The notes under the pieces were generated by a model. That model did not search any database. It saw only the letters and a program-made list of their open reading frames with translations, and had not been told where the DNA came from. Positions 3,291-9,013 of a stretch of 9,227 nucleotides of DNA are shown here, in pieces (the stretch's first letter is position 1; each line of letters starts with the position of its first letter). The stretch lies in NCBI GenBank assembly GCA_001803565.1, contig MHDQ01000257.1:1-9227 (forward strand). The letters are read 5' to 3'. This DNA is from Nitrospinae bacterium RIFCSPLOWO2_12_FULL_45_22. GTDB lineage: Bacteria; 2-12-FULL-45-22. The translations under genes and the position numbers were made by a program.

Positions 3291-3710
3291 TTAGAGGTCT
3301 AGTTTTTTTAGAAATTCTTTCAGCCCTTCAGTTAAATTACACTTATCTAACTTATCTAGAGGGAACCAACCTGCCTCGGTTACATCAGACCCTGCCCTTA
3401 ATGCACCCTTCAGGTAACGGGCAGTATAATCAATAATTATGTAATGATATTTTATCTTTCCCTCATCATCTCTTATTACCCGCTCTACTATGCCAGCCAG
3501 GTATTGGATTTCTACTTTGATCCCACATTCTTCAAAGACCTCCCTACGAACCGCATCCTCTAAGGACTCTCCTAACTCTACTATACCACCAGGCAGGGTC
3601 CACTGTCCTGCCCCGGGTTCATTCCCCCGCTTTATCAGAAGGATTTCCCCTCCTTCTATTATTACTGCCCCTACACCGATAATAGGTAGTTGTGGATATT
3701 TTCTAGACAT
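3291..3710 (-). CDS. Nudix hydrolase (MutT/ADP-ribose pyrophosphatase-like)
   Basis: 139-residue single-domain Nudix protein, the usual length for the family. The Nudix box is complete at residues 42-64 and fits Gx5Ex7REUxEExGU: GIVELGE, then RE at 56-57 and EE at 60-61, followed by CGI. These glutamates bind Mg2+ for cleavage of nucleoside diphosphates linked to another group. The N-terminal strand GVGAVIIEGGEILLIKRG and the W37-T-L-P-G-G sequence are typical. Substrate cannot be predicted; ADP-ribose or an NTP is plausible. The ATG at 3710 overlaps the end of the DUF2851 gene by 8 nt, so the two are almost certainly cotranscribed and translationally coupled, which fits the weak ribosome binding site. 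No export signal; cytoplasmic. Confidence 0.92.
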   Translation of the reverse strand: MSRKYPQLPIIGVGAVIIEGGEILLIKRGNEPGAGQWTLPGGIVELGESLEDAVRREVFEECGIKVEIQYLAGIVERVIRDDEGKIKYHYIIIDYTARYLKGALRAGSDVTEAGWFPLDKLDKCNLTEGLKEFLKKLDL

Positions 3711-5247
3711 AAGCCTGAGGTGTTGTAGTTGTTATGAAGGATAGGAATTCACAGCCCTCACAGCTCCCACCCCGTTCTGTACAATAGTCATAGAAGAGAT
3801 GGAGTAGGGCTTGCTGTCGCCGGGCAGAATGGATCAAAGCCCGTCTCTCTTTATTCCCACCAAATATCCTGTTAGTCATAAACCGAAGGATAGAGTTATC
3901 AGGCGCTTTAGGGGCGGTTTCATATATATTGTGAAGAACCTTTTCTAATTCTACTTCCCGGTTACGCCGGGCATGAATGAGGGCTAAAGGGATAATCACA
4001 TTGATTATAATTTGGTGGATCTTTTCTGGGCCAATAAGTTTTATGGGCTTAGCTAAGGGCCTCCCGCCCAGGGTAAAGCGATAGAGCCAATAATCAGCAT
4101 AATTGGCGCCCCATAGTTGTTGATAGGCCGGGAAAATGGCCGAATAATGACTGGCCCCGGGAGTAAGAGGAGTTTTACGCAAGGTTTCTATAGGGTAAAG
4201 GAGTTGGGCAAATATACCTTTCGGAAGATTTTCTGTCAGGAAATAAGCCAGGCCAGCTAATCTTCTGGGGGGATAATTAGCTGGCCTGGTTCCTACTAGC
4301 CTCCAACTCACATCTTCTGGCTTTACCTGAGGGACAAAACCATTTACCTCTTGCCATACCCGCTCTATTTTATGAAGATATTTTGAGGTAGCTGGCTCCG
4401 GCGACCTCATGACTACCCGGTTGCCCGCCAGTATAATCCAACCGCCAGCAATCAAAAAGATGCCCTGGAGTCTCAAGGCATCTTCAGCTACAGAAGAGCC
4501 TTTAAGCACCTTCTTCAATATATCTAACCGTAAATCTTTAGCCAGTTTCAAGAAGGGTTTCTGGTTAGCTTTATAGCCCAGGGCCATCATGATTCCTTGA
4601 TAAGCCAGTTGATCAAAACCCTCTTTTATCAATTCTTTTTCGTACCTGAGGGCCTTTAAGACTATCCTCTCATCCCCTACTAAATCCAGTACCTGGCTGA
4701 TCTTTTGCGGGTCCTCTTGCTGGATCATGGAACTACAATGGCCCTGCCCACCACGGCAATAATAGGGATAAAGCTCCGGCTCTATGCTTTCTAAGAGCTG
4801 AGAAATATTGCTGCCTAAAACCCGGTTCAATTCCAACTCTACTATCTCCTGCCCGACAGAATTAAAAATTTTTCGGCCCTTAAGGCCCTTTTGCCAGACG
4901 ACATGCAAGACAACCCCATTAAAAGCTGGGTCCTGGTGATGTCCGTGTCCTTTCCAATCGTTAGAATGGAGGTCTATCTCTATATCTCCTTTAAGGATGA
5001 TATTATCATCCAGACATATCACGGCCTTAGAAAAATCCGGCCCCTTTTCAAGATTCCACCAGCCCGGTGTGATCACCTTTATCCTATGACCATCCACGGT
5101 CTCCAGGGGGATATTTTCCAGGTATTGGTCCTGCCATAGGCAGCGTAAGAAGCGTTCAGTAACTTTATCCTGGCCAAAATGCTCTCCCTGTTCTCTTAAA
5201 CACCATTCCCAGGGCCACCGTTGCTTTCTCTTCAACATTTTATACAT
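3703..5247 (-). CDS. DUF2851 family protein
   Basis: 514-residue protein matching the DUF2851 family, of unknown function. The conserved N-terminal block is plain: VDGHRIKVITPGWWNLEKGPDF (51-72), GDIEIDLHSNDW (87-98) and HGHHQDPAFNGVVLHVVW (101-118). The order PDF, then an E-x-D strand, then a His-rich stretch has the look of a metal-binding or nuclease-like core, but that is inference. The C-terminus has a cysteine cluster C489-x6-C496-x2-C499, and C-rich sequence also occurs near YYCRGGQGHCSS in the N-terminal half. The ATG at 5247 has a modest AAGGG-type ribosome binding site about 10 nt upstream; ATG 5238 is an alternative. It leads the minus-strand block behind a good promoter and overlaps the Nudix gene by 8 nt. 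No signal peptide or membrane segment. Confidence 0.85.
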   Translation of the reverse strand: MYKMLKRKQRWPWEWCLREQGEHFGQDKVTERFLRCLWQDQYLENIPLETVDGHRIKVITPGWWNLEKGPDFSKAVICLDDNIILKGDIEIDLHSNDWKGHGHHQDPAFNGVVLHVVWQKGLKGRKIFNSVGQEIVELELNRVLGSNISQLLESIEPELYPYYCRGGQGHCSSMIQQEDPQKISQVLDLVGDERIVLKALRYEKELIKEGFDQLAYQGIMMALGYKANQKPFLKLAKDLRLDILKKVLKGSSVAEDALRLQGIFLIAGGWIILAGNRVVMRSPEPATSKYLHKIERVWQEVNGFVPQVKPEDVSWRLVGTRPANYPPRRLAGLAYFLTENLPKGIFAQLLYPIETLRKTPLTPGASHYSAIFPAYQQLWGANYADYWLYRFTLGGRPLAKPIKLIGPEKIHQIIINVIIPLALIHARRNREVELEKVLHNIYETAPKAPDNSILRFMTNRIFGGNKERRALIHSARRQQALLHLFYDYCTERGGSCEGCEFLSFITTTTPQAYV

Positions 5248-5523: not shown

Positions 5524-6456
5524 ATGTTAGGCATATCAACGGCCTGGAAGTCTAAAGAAGTTGCGACAGGAGATGAATTGCTGAAGGCCCTGGATGAGAT
5601 AGGGATAAACCAGACCGAACTAGATTTCCGAATAACATCTCCCATCTTCCAGCAGCTCCTGCCCTCTATAAAACAAGGCCGGCTCAAAGTCCTTAGTGTC
5701 CATAATTATTTTCCTTTACCGGATATTATCCCTTTGGACAAGGCTAATGCCGACACCTTCCCTCTTTCCTCTCTGGATGAAGCTGAACGACGGCAAGGGA
5801 TCCATTATACTATGAAGACAGTTCAGGTAGCCCATGAAATAGGGGCCAGGGCGGTAGTAGTCCATCTAGGCAGAGTAGATATGGGCTTCCAGAAAAAATA
5901 CTATCACCAACTCTATGATAGCGATAAACTCAGGGGAGAGAAAGGCCAATTATTCCTGAAAGACCAGAAAAAAGTCCGGGAAATATATAAACCGAGACAT
6001 TTAGATGAATTATTTGATAGCCTGGAAAAGGTCCTTAAAGAGGCCGAGAAACTCCGGATTCCTATTGGGATAGAGAACCGGCTCCATCTTAATGAGATAC
6101 CGAATTTTGATGAGATAGGGCTGTTGCTAAAAAAATTTTCCGGTAGCCCCCTCTATTATTGGCATGATACCGGGCATGCCGCAGTTCAAGAGAACTTAAC
6201 CATCGTTGAGCAAAAGGCATTACTGGAGGCTTATTCGTCTTCTCTATTAGGGGTTCATTTGCACGATACCAGGGACTATGAGGACCACCTGGCACCGGGC
6301 AGAGGAACGATAAACTTTTCCTCCCTCCTGCCCTTTATAAAAGATGGCGCCCAGCGGGTACCCGGACCCATCATTAAAATAGTGGAGGCACATCCCAAAG
6401 TATCCCGGGAAGAACTGCTAACGGGTATAGATTATTTAACCAGCTTAGGGCTATAA
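5524..6456 (+). CDS. Sugar phosphate isomerase/epimerase-like TIM-barrel protein (xylose isomerase-like fold)
   Basis: 310-residue protein of the xylose-isomerase-like/AP-endonuclease-2 TIM-barrel superfamily, a normal length. Metal-site candidates fall at the strand ends as in the family: E184 in GIENR, D215 and H218 in WHDTGH, H245 to D248 in GVHLHD, and E288 in IVEAH. Others are H60-N61 in SVHN and H114 in VVHLGR. GRGTINF (259-265) is the usual segment after the HLHD strand. Such enzymes isomerise or epimerise sugars or inositol-like compounds with Mn/Mg/Co; the substrate cannot be told. The ATG at 5524 has AAAGGG (5512-5517) 6 nt upstream. It precedes the GlpX-like gene on the same strand; without the R2/R1 insertion the gap would be about 60 bp, so they were probably one operon. 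Cytoplasmic. Confidence 0.85.
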   Translation: MLGISTAWKSKEVATGDELLKALDEIGINQTELDFRITSPIFQQLLPSIKQGRLKVLSVHNYFPLPDIIPLDKANADTFPLSSLDEAERRQGIHYTMKTVQVAHEIGARAVVVHLGRVDMGFQKKYYHQLYDSDKLRGEKGQLFLKDQKKVREIYKPRHLDELFDSLEKVLKEAEKLRIPIGIENRLHLNEIPNFDEIGLLLKKFSGSPLYYWHDTGHAAVQENLTIVEQKALLEAYSSSLLGVHLHDTRDYEDHLAPGRGTINFSSLLPFIKDGAQRVPGPIIKIVEAHPKVSREELLTGIDYLTSLGL

Positions 6457-6487
6457 TTAACTTGAGCACATTAGGAATTATCTTTTC

Positions 6488-6728
6488 GGACGCAGCTTAT
6501 ACTGCTTAGAATCTGTCACAAAATAACTTGATCAATTGTATTGTATAGGAGTCTCCTTTAACTTGATCAAGTTATTGCGTAGCAATGCCTTAGGGAATAC
6601 AGGAGTCAGAATTCCTGTCTGCCTTCGGCACAGGCAGGCAGAAGTCAGTAGGAACGGAACAATCTACTCCTCTTCTGGATTCTGACTCCTGACTCCTGTA
6701 TTCTAGTTATCTGCGTTAATCTGCGTCC
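6488..6728. mobile_element. Repeat R2, copy B (reverse orientation), carrying R1 but not R3
   Basis: The ends are GGACGCAG (6488-6495) and CTGCGTCC (6721-6728), a perfect 8-bp terminal inverted repeat. Apart from the R1 insertion, the body is the reverse complement of copy A at 2915-3273. It contains the long GACTCCTGTATTC stem and inner GC-rich hairpin. Without R1 and one 5-bp flank it is about 157 bp. It fills most of the gap 6457-6758 between the TIM-barrel and GlpX-like genes; I see no gene there. Confidence 0.82.
6505..6593. mobile_element. Repeat R1, copy B, 79 bp, flanked by CTTAG; empty site for R3
   Basis: The core runs 6510-6588 with direct CTTAG flanks at 6505-6509 and 6589-6593. 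It matches copy A in plus-strand orientation but has no R3: AGGAGTCTCC (6547-6556) runs straight into TTTAACTTGATCAAG. Because the surrounding R2 is reversed, R1 sits here in the opposite orientation relative to R2. Confidence 0.82.
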
Positions 6729-6745
6729 TAATTAAATAAGATTAT

Positions 6746-6752
6746 AAAGGGG
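6746..6752 (+). promoter_or_regulatory. Ribosome binding site of the GlpX-like gene
   Basis: AAAGGGG, 6 nt before ATG 6759, fixes that start. It lies just outside the right end of R2, so the insertion did not destroy translation of this gene. Confidence 0.75.
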
Positions 6753-6758
6753 CCATTA

Positions 6759-7685
6759 ATGGAACAAGACCTGGCATTAGAGAGTGTACGGGTGACCGAG
6801 GCAGCGGCATTGGCCTGTGCGCGATTAATGGGACAGGGTGATGAGCACTTAGCGTATTATAGCGCGGTAGAGGCCATGAGCAAAGCCTTGAAAAATTTGC
6901 CTATAAAAGGAACTATTGCTATCGGTGCCGGTGAACCAGAGGATAGCCCACAGTTATATGGGGGCGAACAGATTGGTAGCGGTGACTTTCCCGAGGTAGA
7001 GATCGCATTAAATCCCCTGGAAGGGACTACTATCTGTGCTACTGGGGGGCCTAATTCTATCTCCGTGGTAGCCATAGGTAAGAAAGGCTCCTTCTTCCCC
7101 TGCCCAGATGTCTATATGGAGAAGATAGCAGTAGGGCCTAAAGCCCGGGGTGTTATAGATTTGAACCTCTCCCCAGCCGAAAATCTCAAAAACATTGCTG
7201 ATGCCCTGGGTTGTTATATTGAGGATTTGACTGTAGTGATCTTGAACCGCCCCCGACACCAGGAGCTCATTCAACAAGTACGGGGAGCCGGCGCCCGGAT
7301 AAAGCTGATTGGTGATGGTGATGTATCGGCCGCAATAGCTACTGCCTTGAAAGGTTCCGGGGTGGATATCCTGATGGGTATTGGTGGGGCTAAACAAGGG
7401 GTATTAGCTGCTGCTGCCCTAAAATGCCTGAAAGGGGACATTCAGGGAAGGCTCTGCCCCCAGCCAGGGAGCGATATTCCTGGCCCTTACCTGGATAAAG
7501 TGCTGACTATAGATGATCTGGTAAAAGGAGAAAATATAAGTTTTGCTGCTACTGGTATTACTGACGGCGACATGCTTAAAGGGGTGAGGTTTTTTAGTGG
7601 GGGTGCCCACACTTATTCCCTGGTTATGTCCTCCCAATACCGCACCATCCGCTTCATAGAAACCGACCATTACCTCCCTTATTAG
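6759..7685 (+). CDS. GlpX-like class II fructose-1,6-bisphosphatase homologue lacking most metal ligands (probable pseudoenzyme)
   Basis: 308 residues, aligned without gaps to E. coli GlpX (from memory) through about residue 220. GlpX hydrolyses fructose 1,6-bisphosphate in gluconeogenesis with Mg/Mn held by D33, E57, D85, E88 and E213. Here these are Y33, A57 (GAGE for GEGE), N85 (NPLEGT for DPIEGT), E88 and Q213 (GIGGAKQG for GIGGAPEG); D61 is E. Codons were checked: TAT, GCC, AAT, CAA. Substrate-side residues remain: Y119 in YMEK, R164 and R166 in RPRH, D186 and D188 in GDGD, T90. The loop after IQGRL is about 19 residues shorter than in E. coli. The frame is intact and conserved elsewhere, so it seems maintained. 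It may be a ligand-binding or regulatory protein rather than a phosphatase. The start has AAAGGGG 6 nt upstream. Confidence 0.9.
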   Translation: MEQDLALESVRVTEAAALACARLMGQGDEHLAYYSAVEAMSKALKNLPIKGTIAIGAGEPEDSPQLYGGEQIGSGDFPEVEIALNPLEGTTICATGGPNSISVVAIGKKGSFFPCPDVYMEKIAVGPKARGVIDLNLSPAENLKNIADALGCYIEDLTVVILNRPRHQELIQQVRGAGARIKLIGDGDVSAAIATALKGSGVDILMGIGGAKQGVLAAAALKCLKGDIQGRLCPQPGSDIPGPYLDKVLTIDDLVKGENISFAATGITDGDMLKGVRFFSGGAHTYSLVMSSQYRTIRFIETDHYLPY

Positions 7686-7689
7686 CCTT

Positions 7690-7829
7690 GTAAGCGTTCA
7701 GTCGTCAGCTATCAGCGGTCAGCAAGACAAGGAAAAACAACAACTTATGTATAAACACCTGTCTTGGGAAGAGCGGGTTATTTCTTGTATTCTTTTGTTT
7801 TAACTGAAGGCTGATAGCTGAACGCTTAC
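7690..7829. mobile_element. 140-bp GTAAGCGTTCAG-type palindromic element between convergent genes
   Basis: Perfect 12-bp ends: GTAAGCGTTCAG (7690-7701) and CTGAACGCTTAC (7818-7829). Related CAGCTATCAGC words continue inward on both sides. It fills the space between the GlpX-like stop (7685) and the opposing stop at 7837. The interior has no coding potential. It may double as a terminator by folding, but no strong stem with a T-run is seen. Confidence 0.75.
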
Positions 7830-7836
7830 TTAGCCT

Positions 7837-8943
7837 TTAGCCCTCAAGGCTTTCCAGGAATGCCTGTACCCGCGTCTTCATCTGCCCCATACCAGCCATA
7901 GAATATTCCCGGTCTAGCCCTAAAATAGGCAACCCTAACTCGGCTAGATAGGCCTTAGCCATGGGGTAATAGACCCCATAAATATCACAGAATTTTATGG
8001 TTTCATAGATAGCCCCGGCTACCCGGAAGCGCTCTACCATCTCTTTCAAATGCCTTTTCCTGTTAGTATCAGGCCTGATCCGGGGACATGGGGCATTGGT
8101 CAGGTAACGTCTGGCTAATGCCCGGATAGGGTCTTGCTCCGGTACTACCGGGTTCCAGAAATACCGGGAGCCTACACAAAGATCATCGGCTACAATCAAG
8201 GCCCCTGACTCTTCTACTAGCTTCAGATAATCAGGATTATCCAGCTCACTACCCAGTACCATTAGCCTTATCCGATGGTCTGTATCTGCTTTTGGGGGAG
8301 AAATTTCTTTTAAAAATCCTTCCAGCAAGGCATTAAACTCTTCTTTAGGCATAATCATTGCCGCTTTTACTATTTCTAAAGTCTCGGCACCAGTGATGGG
8401 GGGAGTATCGGCTGTCCGCAGTTCATAGAGCTGGCGTAAGAGCTTTCGGGTCTGGTTATGCACTTCTATTGATTTATTTAGGGCCTCATCAGTGATGGTT
8501 TGTCCAGTAAAGCCCTCTACTTTTTCTTTGAAGCTCTTTAATTGCTGGGTATAGAAATCTAAGGTAGGATCGTCCACTTTATGGGGTAGACTGATTATAT
8601 GGGTAAAAGGAGGTTTTATATACTGGCGCCAGACATCGAATAGCCTCCGGATATGGTCGCAGGTATTGGCCACTACAAAACCATCAAGAAACGCATAATT
8701 GTTAGTTAGGGCCTCTTCCAGACAGCTCCGGACAAATGAACAGGCATTGGTATATAGATGAGCATCAGCCAACGGCGTCCGCTCGGCCCCACCCATAACC
8801 CGCACCGGCAGGATACCGGCAGAAGCCAGTATCTCTTCCGGTACATAGAGACACATCCAGCCTATAATTTTCTGCCCCTGCCCCTGCCTCCCCTTTAAAT
8901 TCCGGTATCTATTTACATAAGCTTCCCTAAATCTCTCCATCAT
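7837..8943 (-). CDS. 2-hydroxyacyl-CoA dehydratase subunit D / benzoyl-CoA reductase family protein, possibly double-cubane-cluster type
   Basis: 368 residues from ATG 8943. I prefer this start over the in-frame TTG at 8958 because GGAGGA (8955-8950) lies 6 nt before the ATG. Family features: GWMCLYVPEEILASAGILPVR (from residue 28), NACSFVRSC, VVANTCDHIRRLFD, ADDLCVGSRYFW and IKFCDIYGVYYPMAKAYL. Cysteines are C31, C68, C74, C95, C256, C286 and C319. Family members bind Fe-S clusters and use ATP-driven activator proteins to reduce or dehydrate difficult substrates such as 2-hydroxyacyl-CoA or benzoyl-CoA. Those enzymes are usually heterodimers; neither partner nor activase is in the window. 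Six cysteines fall where I recall those of YjiM/double-cubane proteins, so a stand-alone enzyme is possible. Substrate unknown; oxygen-sensitive enzymes of this kind point to an anaerobe. Confidence 0.85.
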   Translation of the reverse strand: MMERFREAYVNRYRNLKGRQGQGQKIIGWMCLYVPEEILASAGILPVRVMGGAERTPLADAHLYTNACSFVRSCLEEALTNNYAFLDGFVVANTCDHIRRLFDVWRQYIKPPFTHIISLPHKVDDPTLDFYTQQLKSFKEKVEGFTGQTITDEALNKSIEVHNQTRKLLRQLYELRTADTPPITGAETLEIVKAAMIMPKEEFNALLEGFLKEISPPKADTDHRIRLMVLGSELDNPDYLKLVEESGALIVADDLCVGSRYFWNPVVPEQDPIRALARRYLTNAPCPRIRPDTNRKRHLKEMVERFRVAGAIYETIKFCDIYGVYYPMAKAYLAELGLPILGLDREYSMAGMGQMKTRVQAFLESLEG

Positions 8944-8949
8944 CGCCCA

Positions 8950-8955
8950 TCCTCC
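8950..8955 (-). promoter_or_regulatory. Ribosome binding site deciding the start at 8943
   Basis: GGAGGA on the minus strand, 6 nt before ATG 8943. The longer frame from TTG 8958 would place this site inside the coding region, so the shorter start is preferred. Confidence 0.8.
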
Positions 8956-9013
8956 CAAAGCTTGATCCTAAAAATCTCTGTTAATGACAATATTTTAATA
9001 TCTTTTTCCCCTT

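Follow-up and report, generated by a model that had tools for sequence, protein, structure and literature searches.

The window, by which we mean the whole 9,227-nucleotide stretch of DNA analysed here, comes from a bacterium of a little-known phylum and contains a gene for a GlpX-fold protein whose catalytic metal site has been dismantled (Table 1). The reading frame and coordinates given in a preliminary description of the sequence are correct, and the gene encodes an intact relative of GlpX, the class II fructose-1,6-bisphosphatase (FBPase). The product scored 409.6 bits against the Pfam profile PF03320 (cut-off 27) and 337.3 against the NCBIfam profile TIGR00330 (cut-off 259.3). Since both curated cut-offs are exceeded, it belongs to the GlpX/class II FBPase sequence family. 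An alignment with GlpX structures, as proposed in the preliminary description, was made from an AlphaFold model (mean pLDDT 95.0, pTM 0.93) and gave TM-scores of 0.87-0.95, normalised to the query; the predicted model has the GlpX fold. No promoter or terminator was found on scanning positions 6400-7900, and the window contained no Rfam match. On the minus strand at 7837-8958 lies a gene for a 2-hydroxyglutaryl-CoA dehydratase D-component family protein, whose best NCBIfam match, a double-cubane reductase, scored 246.6, below the cut-off of 350. Two other minus-strand genes, at 3703-5247 and 581-1909, are conserved but have no assigned function (DUF2851 and DUF1015, respectively).

Table 1. 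Coordinates of the GlpX gene and its active-site codons in the window, and of the paired genes of family f82 at their own loci.
Feature	Location	Strand	Remark
GlpX-fold protein, catalytic metal site dismantled	6759..7685	+	308 aa, open frame intact
Codon 33 (TAT), Tyr replaces metal ligand Asp33	6855..6857	+	Common to sister genome G001
Codon 57 (GCC), Ala replaces metal ligand Glu57	6927..6929	+	Not shared with G001
Codon 61 (GAG), Glu replaces conserved Asp	6939..6941	+	Gly in G001
Codon 85 (AAT), Asn replaces metal ligand Asp85	7011..7013	+	Not shared with G001
Codons 88-90, Glu88 (GAA) and Thr90 (ACT) retained	7020..7028	+	
Codon 119 (TAT), Tyr119 of 6-phosphate pocket retained	7113..7115	+	
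Codons 164-166, RxR motif of 6-phosphate pocket retained (164 CGC, 166 CGA)	7248..7256	+	
Codons 186-188, DGD motif contacting furanose ring retained (186 GAT, 188 GAT)	7314..7322	+	
Codon 213 (CAA), Gln replaces metal ligand Glu213	7395..7397	+	Not shared with G001
f82 class III FBPase-GlpX pair	L071 8368-11119		
f82 class III FBPase-GlpX pair	L085 3885-6662		
f82 class III FBPase-GlpX pair	L086 3589-6392		
f82 class III FBPase-GlpX pair	L087 2719-5492		
f82 class III FBPase-GlpX pair	L088 5357-8076		
f82 class III FBPase-GlpX pair	L089 3-2177		Upstream gene cut by stretch end
f82 class III FBPase-GlpX pair	L090 3828-6592		
f82 class III FBPase-GlpX pair	L091 3675-6425		

The active-site residues of Escherichia coli GlpX are D33, E57, D85, E88, T90, Y119, K164, R166, D188 and E213 (PMC5892879), in agreement with the ligand positions used in the preliminary description. 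In the Francisella enzyme, the Asp85 equivalent and a backbone carbonyl coordinate one Mn2+, to which E57 is linked via water; the 6-phosphate is bound by an Arg motif and the furanose hydroxyls by DGD, and the Thr90 equivalent is the proposed nucleophile (PMC10289334). Inspection of the codons bore out both halves of the original observation: D33Y, E57A, D85N and E213Q are present with E88 kept, and the pocket residues T90, Y119, R164, R166, D186 and D188 all remain. Four of the five published metal ligands have thus become residues without a carboxylate, and the protein reads Y, A, N, E and Q where a class II FBPase has D33, E57, D85, E or D at 88, and E213. Position 61, which is conserved in canonical sequences and absent from the published ligand list, is also changed; our literature search found no paper mentioning Asp61 and GlpX together. 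A lost catalytic motif in a retained predicted fold is one of the marks of a pseudoenzyme, and we infer that the protein probably lacks metal-dependent FBPase activity.

Changes of this kind are uncommon in the family. Nearly all relatives first retrieved read D, E, D, E or D, and E at the five ligand positions, and all five ligands are intact in 96 of the 116 GlpX sequences collected, with D at position 88 counted as equivalent to E. The remaining 20 represent fewer than 20 independent origins, since several share a genus or family, one row is gapped across the first two ligands, and the alignment at position 57 is ambiguous in L072 at least.

The phylum is represented in our collection by two genomes, the window genome and its sister G001, whose GlpX is 68% identical to that of the window. 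The G001 protein reads Y33 but keeps E57, D85, E88 and E213, and therefore may be active. Of the 55 columns that at least 95% of canonical sequences conserve, 12 are altered in the window protein and 11 in G001. Both proteins are altered at eight columns (33, 35, 41, 54, 61, 63, 65 and 225), while four changes in the window protein (57, 81, 85 and 213) are not shared with G001. A search of the phylum for relatives with the same four substitutions, as had been suggested, found D33Y but not A57, N85 or Q213 in the one relative available. Since G001 shares D33Y and a changed D61 and retains E57, D85 and E213, the metal site was probably lost in steps. Going by these two sequences, the D33/E57/D61 side of the site may have changed early, after which the window branch would have lost E57, D85 and E213. 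Because only D33Y is common to the sole relative from the phylum, the other three substitutions have no datable place along that branch.

We then asked what the window branch says about selection. The branch is not accelerated (length 0.38, against 0.42 for G001), and the ligands account for three of the four conserved-column changes not shared with G001 (hypergeometric P about 0.001 under equal mutability). Pairwise dN/dS between the window and G001 genes was dropped as a measure owing to saturation of synonymous sites, which also makes estimates of omega for the branch unreliable; we therefore used a test against omega = 1. In the codon model, fixing omega at 1 on the window branch gave a poorer fit than the optimum (2 x delta lnL about 7.6), a weak test given the saturated synonymous sites and a difference in third-position GC (0.48 versus 0.75), and one that leaves the time of loss undated. 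Setting omega to 0.5 cost only about 3 lnL units relative to the optimum. Neutral evolution would predict about 3.4 stop codons on the branch, where none was seen (P 0.03), and under it at most one change at the 43 non-ligand conserved columns had a probability of 0.0004. Neutrality on the window branch is modestly rejected. The preliminary description had held that the changes were not the result of decay; these tests argue against drift over the whole branch, for which simple decay appears a poor fit, but a recent loss is still compatible with them.

One GlpX copy was found in the window genome (321 contigs, 85% complete). The preliminary description had advised a check for a canonical FBPase and suggested that the protein might regulate a real phosphatase. 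A search of this 85% complete genome limited to classes I, III and V, outside which inositol-monophosphatase-like and phosphoglycerate-mutase-like FBPases lie, found no such enzyme, so that regulation of a real phosphatase is unsupported in this host. The single phosphofructokinase (PFK) found scored 588.6 against the NCBIfam equivalog for the pyrophosphate (PPi)-dependent enzyme (cut-off 550) and reads GGDD and PKTIDND. PPi-PFK is reversible, and an FBPase may therefore be dispensable. The sister genome also has one PFK, which is above no equivalog cut-off. The adjoining TIM-barrel gene, named as a neighbour in the preliminary description, was considered as a partner and rejected: it is not next to glpX in G001, and the two form no shared cluster among the compared loci. 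No conserved neighbourhood was found for the window GlpX, nor any partner in its genome. In G001 and in G074, which belongs to another phylum, glpX adjoins a miaB-type gene on the same strand (L052 4788-7202 and L066 6830-9262); the L066 gene is assigned to MiaB, and the L052 gene was called from reading the sequence alone.

Altered ligands also occur in GlpX proteins of G032, G074 with G193, G173, G045, G050, G277, one of the three copies of G404, and family f82. A class V FBPase is present in G032 and G074. Ligand changes were the basis on which these parallel cases were selected. Among 11 representatives compared, R166, G187, G207, G209 and G226 are kept in all 11, and R41 and D61, which were not selection criteria, are kept in two. 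Retention of the pocket is incomplete, with D188, Y119 and T90 lost in several. The altered G404 copy reads DKDEE at the ligands and the single GlpX of G277 reads EEDEE, and both have Gly and His in place of Thr90 and Tyr119 (L103 and L100). The degenerate genes of G074 and G193 (L066/L084) are under purifying selection, with a pairwise omega of 0.10 at dS 0.96; a canonical pair (L094/L095) has 0.08. In G050 and G045, the degenerate glpX ends a row of aminotransferase, homoserine dehydrogenase and apgM-type genes (L069 5253-9853 and L070 7466-11980), and homoserine dehydrogenase and apgM-type genes also lie beside a canonical glpX in G058 (L080).

In the bacterial family f82, eight genomes encode a GlpX in which position 33 is L or V, position 57 is R and position 85 is I, V or L, with Thr90 replaced. 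Each of these eight genes is directly preceded on the same strand, at a distance of 16-69 bases, by a class III FBPase homologue. The one upstream gene scanned (L071) matched PF06874 with 335.4 bits; judged by eye, its phosphoesterase motifs look intact, and this phosphatase gene, unrelated to glpX, is apparently functional in sequence. The degenerate GlpX genes of L088 and L090 are under strong purifying selection (omega 0.032, dS 1.7); dS is saturated for the other pairs. Because the degenerate GlpX directly follows a class III FBPase, regulation of that FBPase is the leading idea for f82, though not for the window protein. By analogy, the pairing would lend indirect support to a regulatory role for degenerate GlpX proteins.

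With moderate confidence, we propose that the window protein is a GlpX-derived pseudoenzyme that probably binds fructose 1,6-bisphosphate (FBP) or a similar sugar bisphosphate. PPi-PFK, by interconverting fructose 6-phosphate (F6P) and FBP, would have made hydrolysis by GlpX dispensable. D85N and E213Q are near-isosteric changes that remove charge; together with D33Y and E57A they would strip four negative charges from the metal site. Metal-free binding of a bisphosphate would thereby be favoured, as the acidic residues near the 1-phosphate would be gone. In its bound form, the protein may regulate some process. The same account, in which PPi-PFK carried the flux and FBPase became dispensable, also fits a gene that lost its ligands lately and is drifting but not yet broken. 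The single GlpX copy, the presence of PPi-PFK, the undatable non-shared changes and the small lnL penalty of omega 0.5 are all consistent with this, as is the fact that a single base substitution in an Asp or Glu codon would suffice for each of D33Y, D85N and E213Q. However, the frame is intact, the branch is not accelerated, and the changes are concentrated at the ligands with few at other conserved columns; we consider such a recent loss fairly unlikely.

It is unlikely, too, that the protein has remained a phosphatase that uses metal differently or works by a changed chemistry, hydrolysing the same or another bisphosphate slowly or independently of metal. Glu88, the proposed nucleophile Thr90 and the substrate pocket would serve such an enzyme, the sister protein keeps the D85/E213 metal site without D33, and the Francisella enzyme is described with one Mn2+ held by its Asp85 equivalent, a backbone carbonyl and water-mediated E57 (PMC10289334). 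In the window protein, however, positions 85, 57 and 213 read Asn, Ala and Gln, and the metal-holding side chains are gone. A kept pocket with acidic residues replaced near the 1-phosphate could also point to an active site refashioned for another reaction or another ligand, which we regard as very unlikely. A genome of 321 contigs at 85% completeness invites suspicion of a sequencing, assembly or binning artefact, but the frame is open, the four substitutions are separate, and one of them recurs in G001, a separate genome whose protein is 68% identical, which makes this highly improbable.

Extended to the parallel cases, the pseudoenzyme reading would have GlpX repeatedly becoming a non-catalytic sugar-bisphosphate sensor where PPi-PFK, class V or class III FBPase moves flux between F6P and FBP, and in one family being co-transcribed with a class III FBPase and regulating it; we offer this generalization tentatively, as a possibility that we doubt more than we credit. 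If degenerate GlpX proteins do sense sugar bisphosphates, they would represent a layer of regulation that recurs in central carbon metabolism. As the window protein passes the curated cut-off, annotation would call it a class II FBPase, and metabolic models would then credit it with a gluconeogenic activity that is probably absent. A search of open-access full texts, outside which most subscription journals lie, found no paper joining GlpX and pseudoenzyme.

Compared with the class II FBPases of E. coli, Mycobacterium tuberculosis and Francisella tularensis, the window protein has the same family and predicted fold and keeps E88, T90, Y119, R164 (as in M. tuberculosis), R166, D186 and D188, but D33, E57, D85 and E213 are replaced and position 61 is changed. 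It is also shorter than most relatives at 308 residues. The G001 protein, 68% identical to it, likewise has D33Y, is also altered at position 61 and shares six more changed columns, but retains the other four ligands, of which the window protein keeps E88. Ligands 33, 57 and 85 are replaced in both the window and f82 proteins; f82 GlpX also keeps E88 but, unlike the window protein, has an acidic residue at 213, lacks Thr90, has Glu in place of D188 and is encoded by a gene that directly follows that of a class III FBPase homologue. Beyond this single member of the GlpX family, recurrent ligand loss is the more general point.
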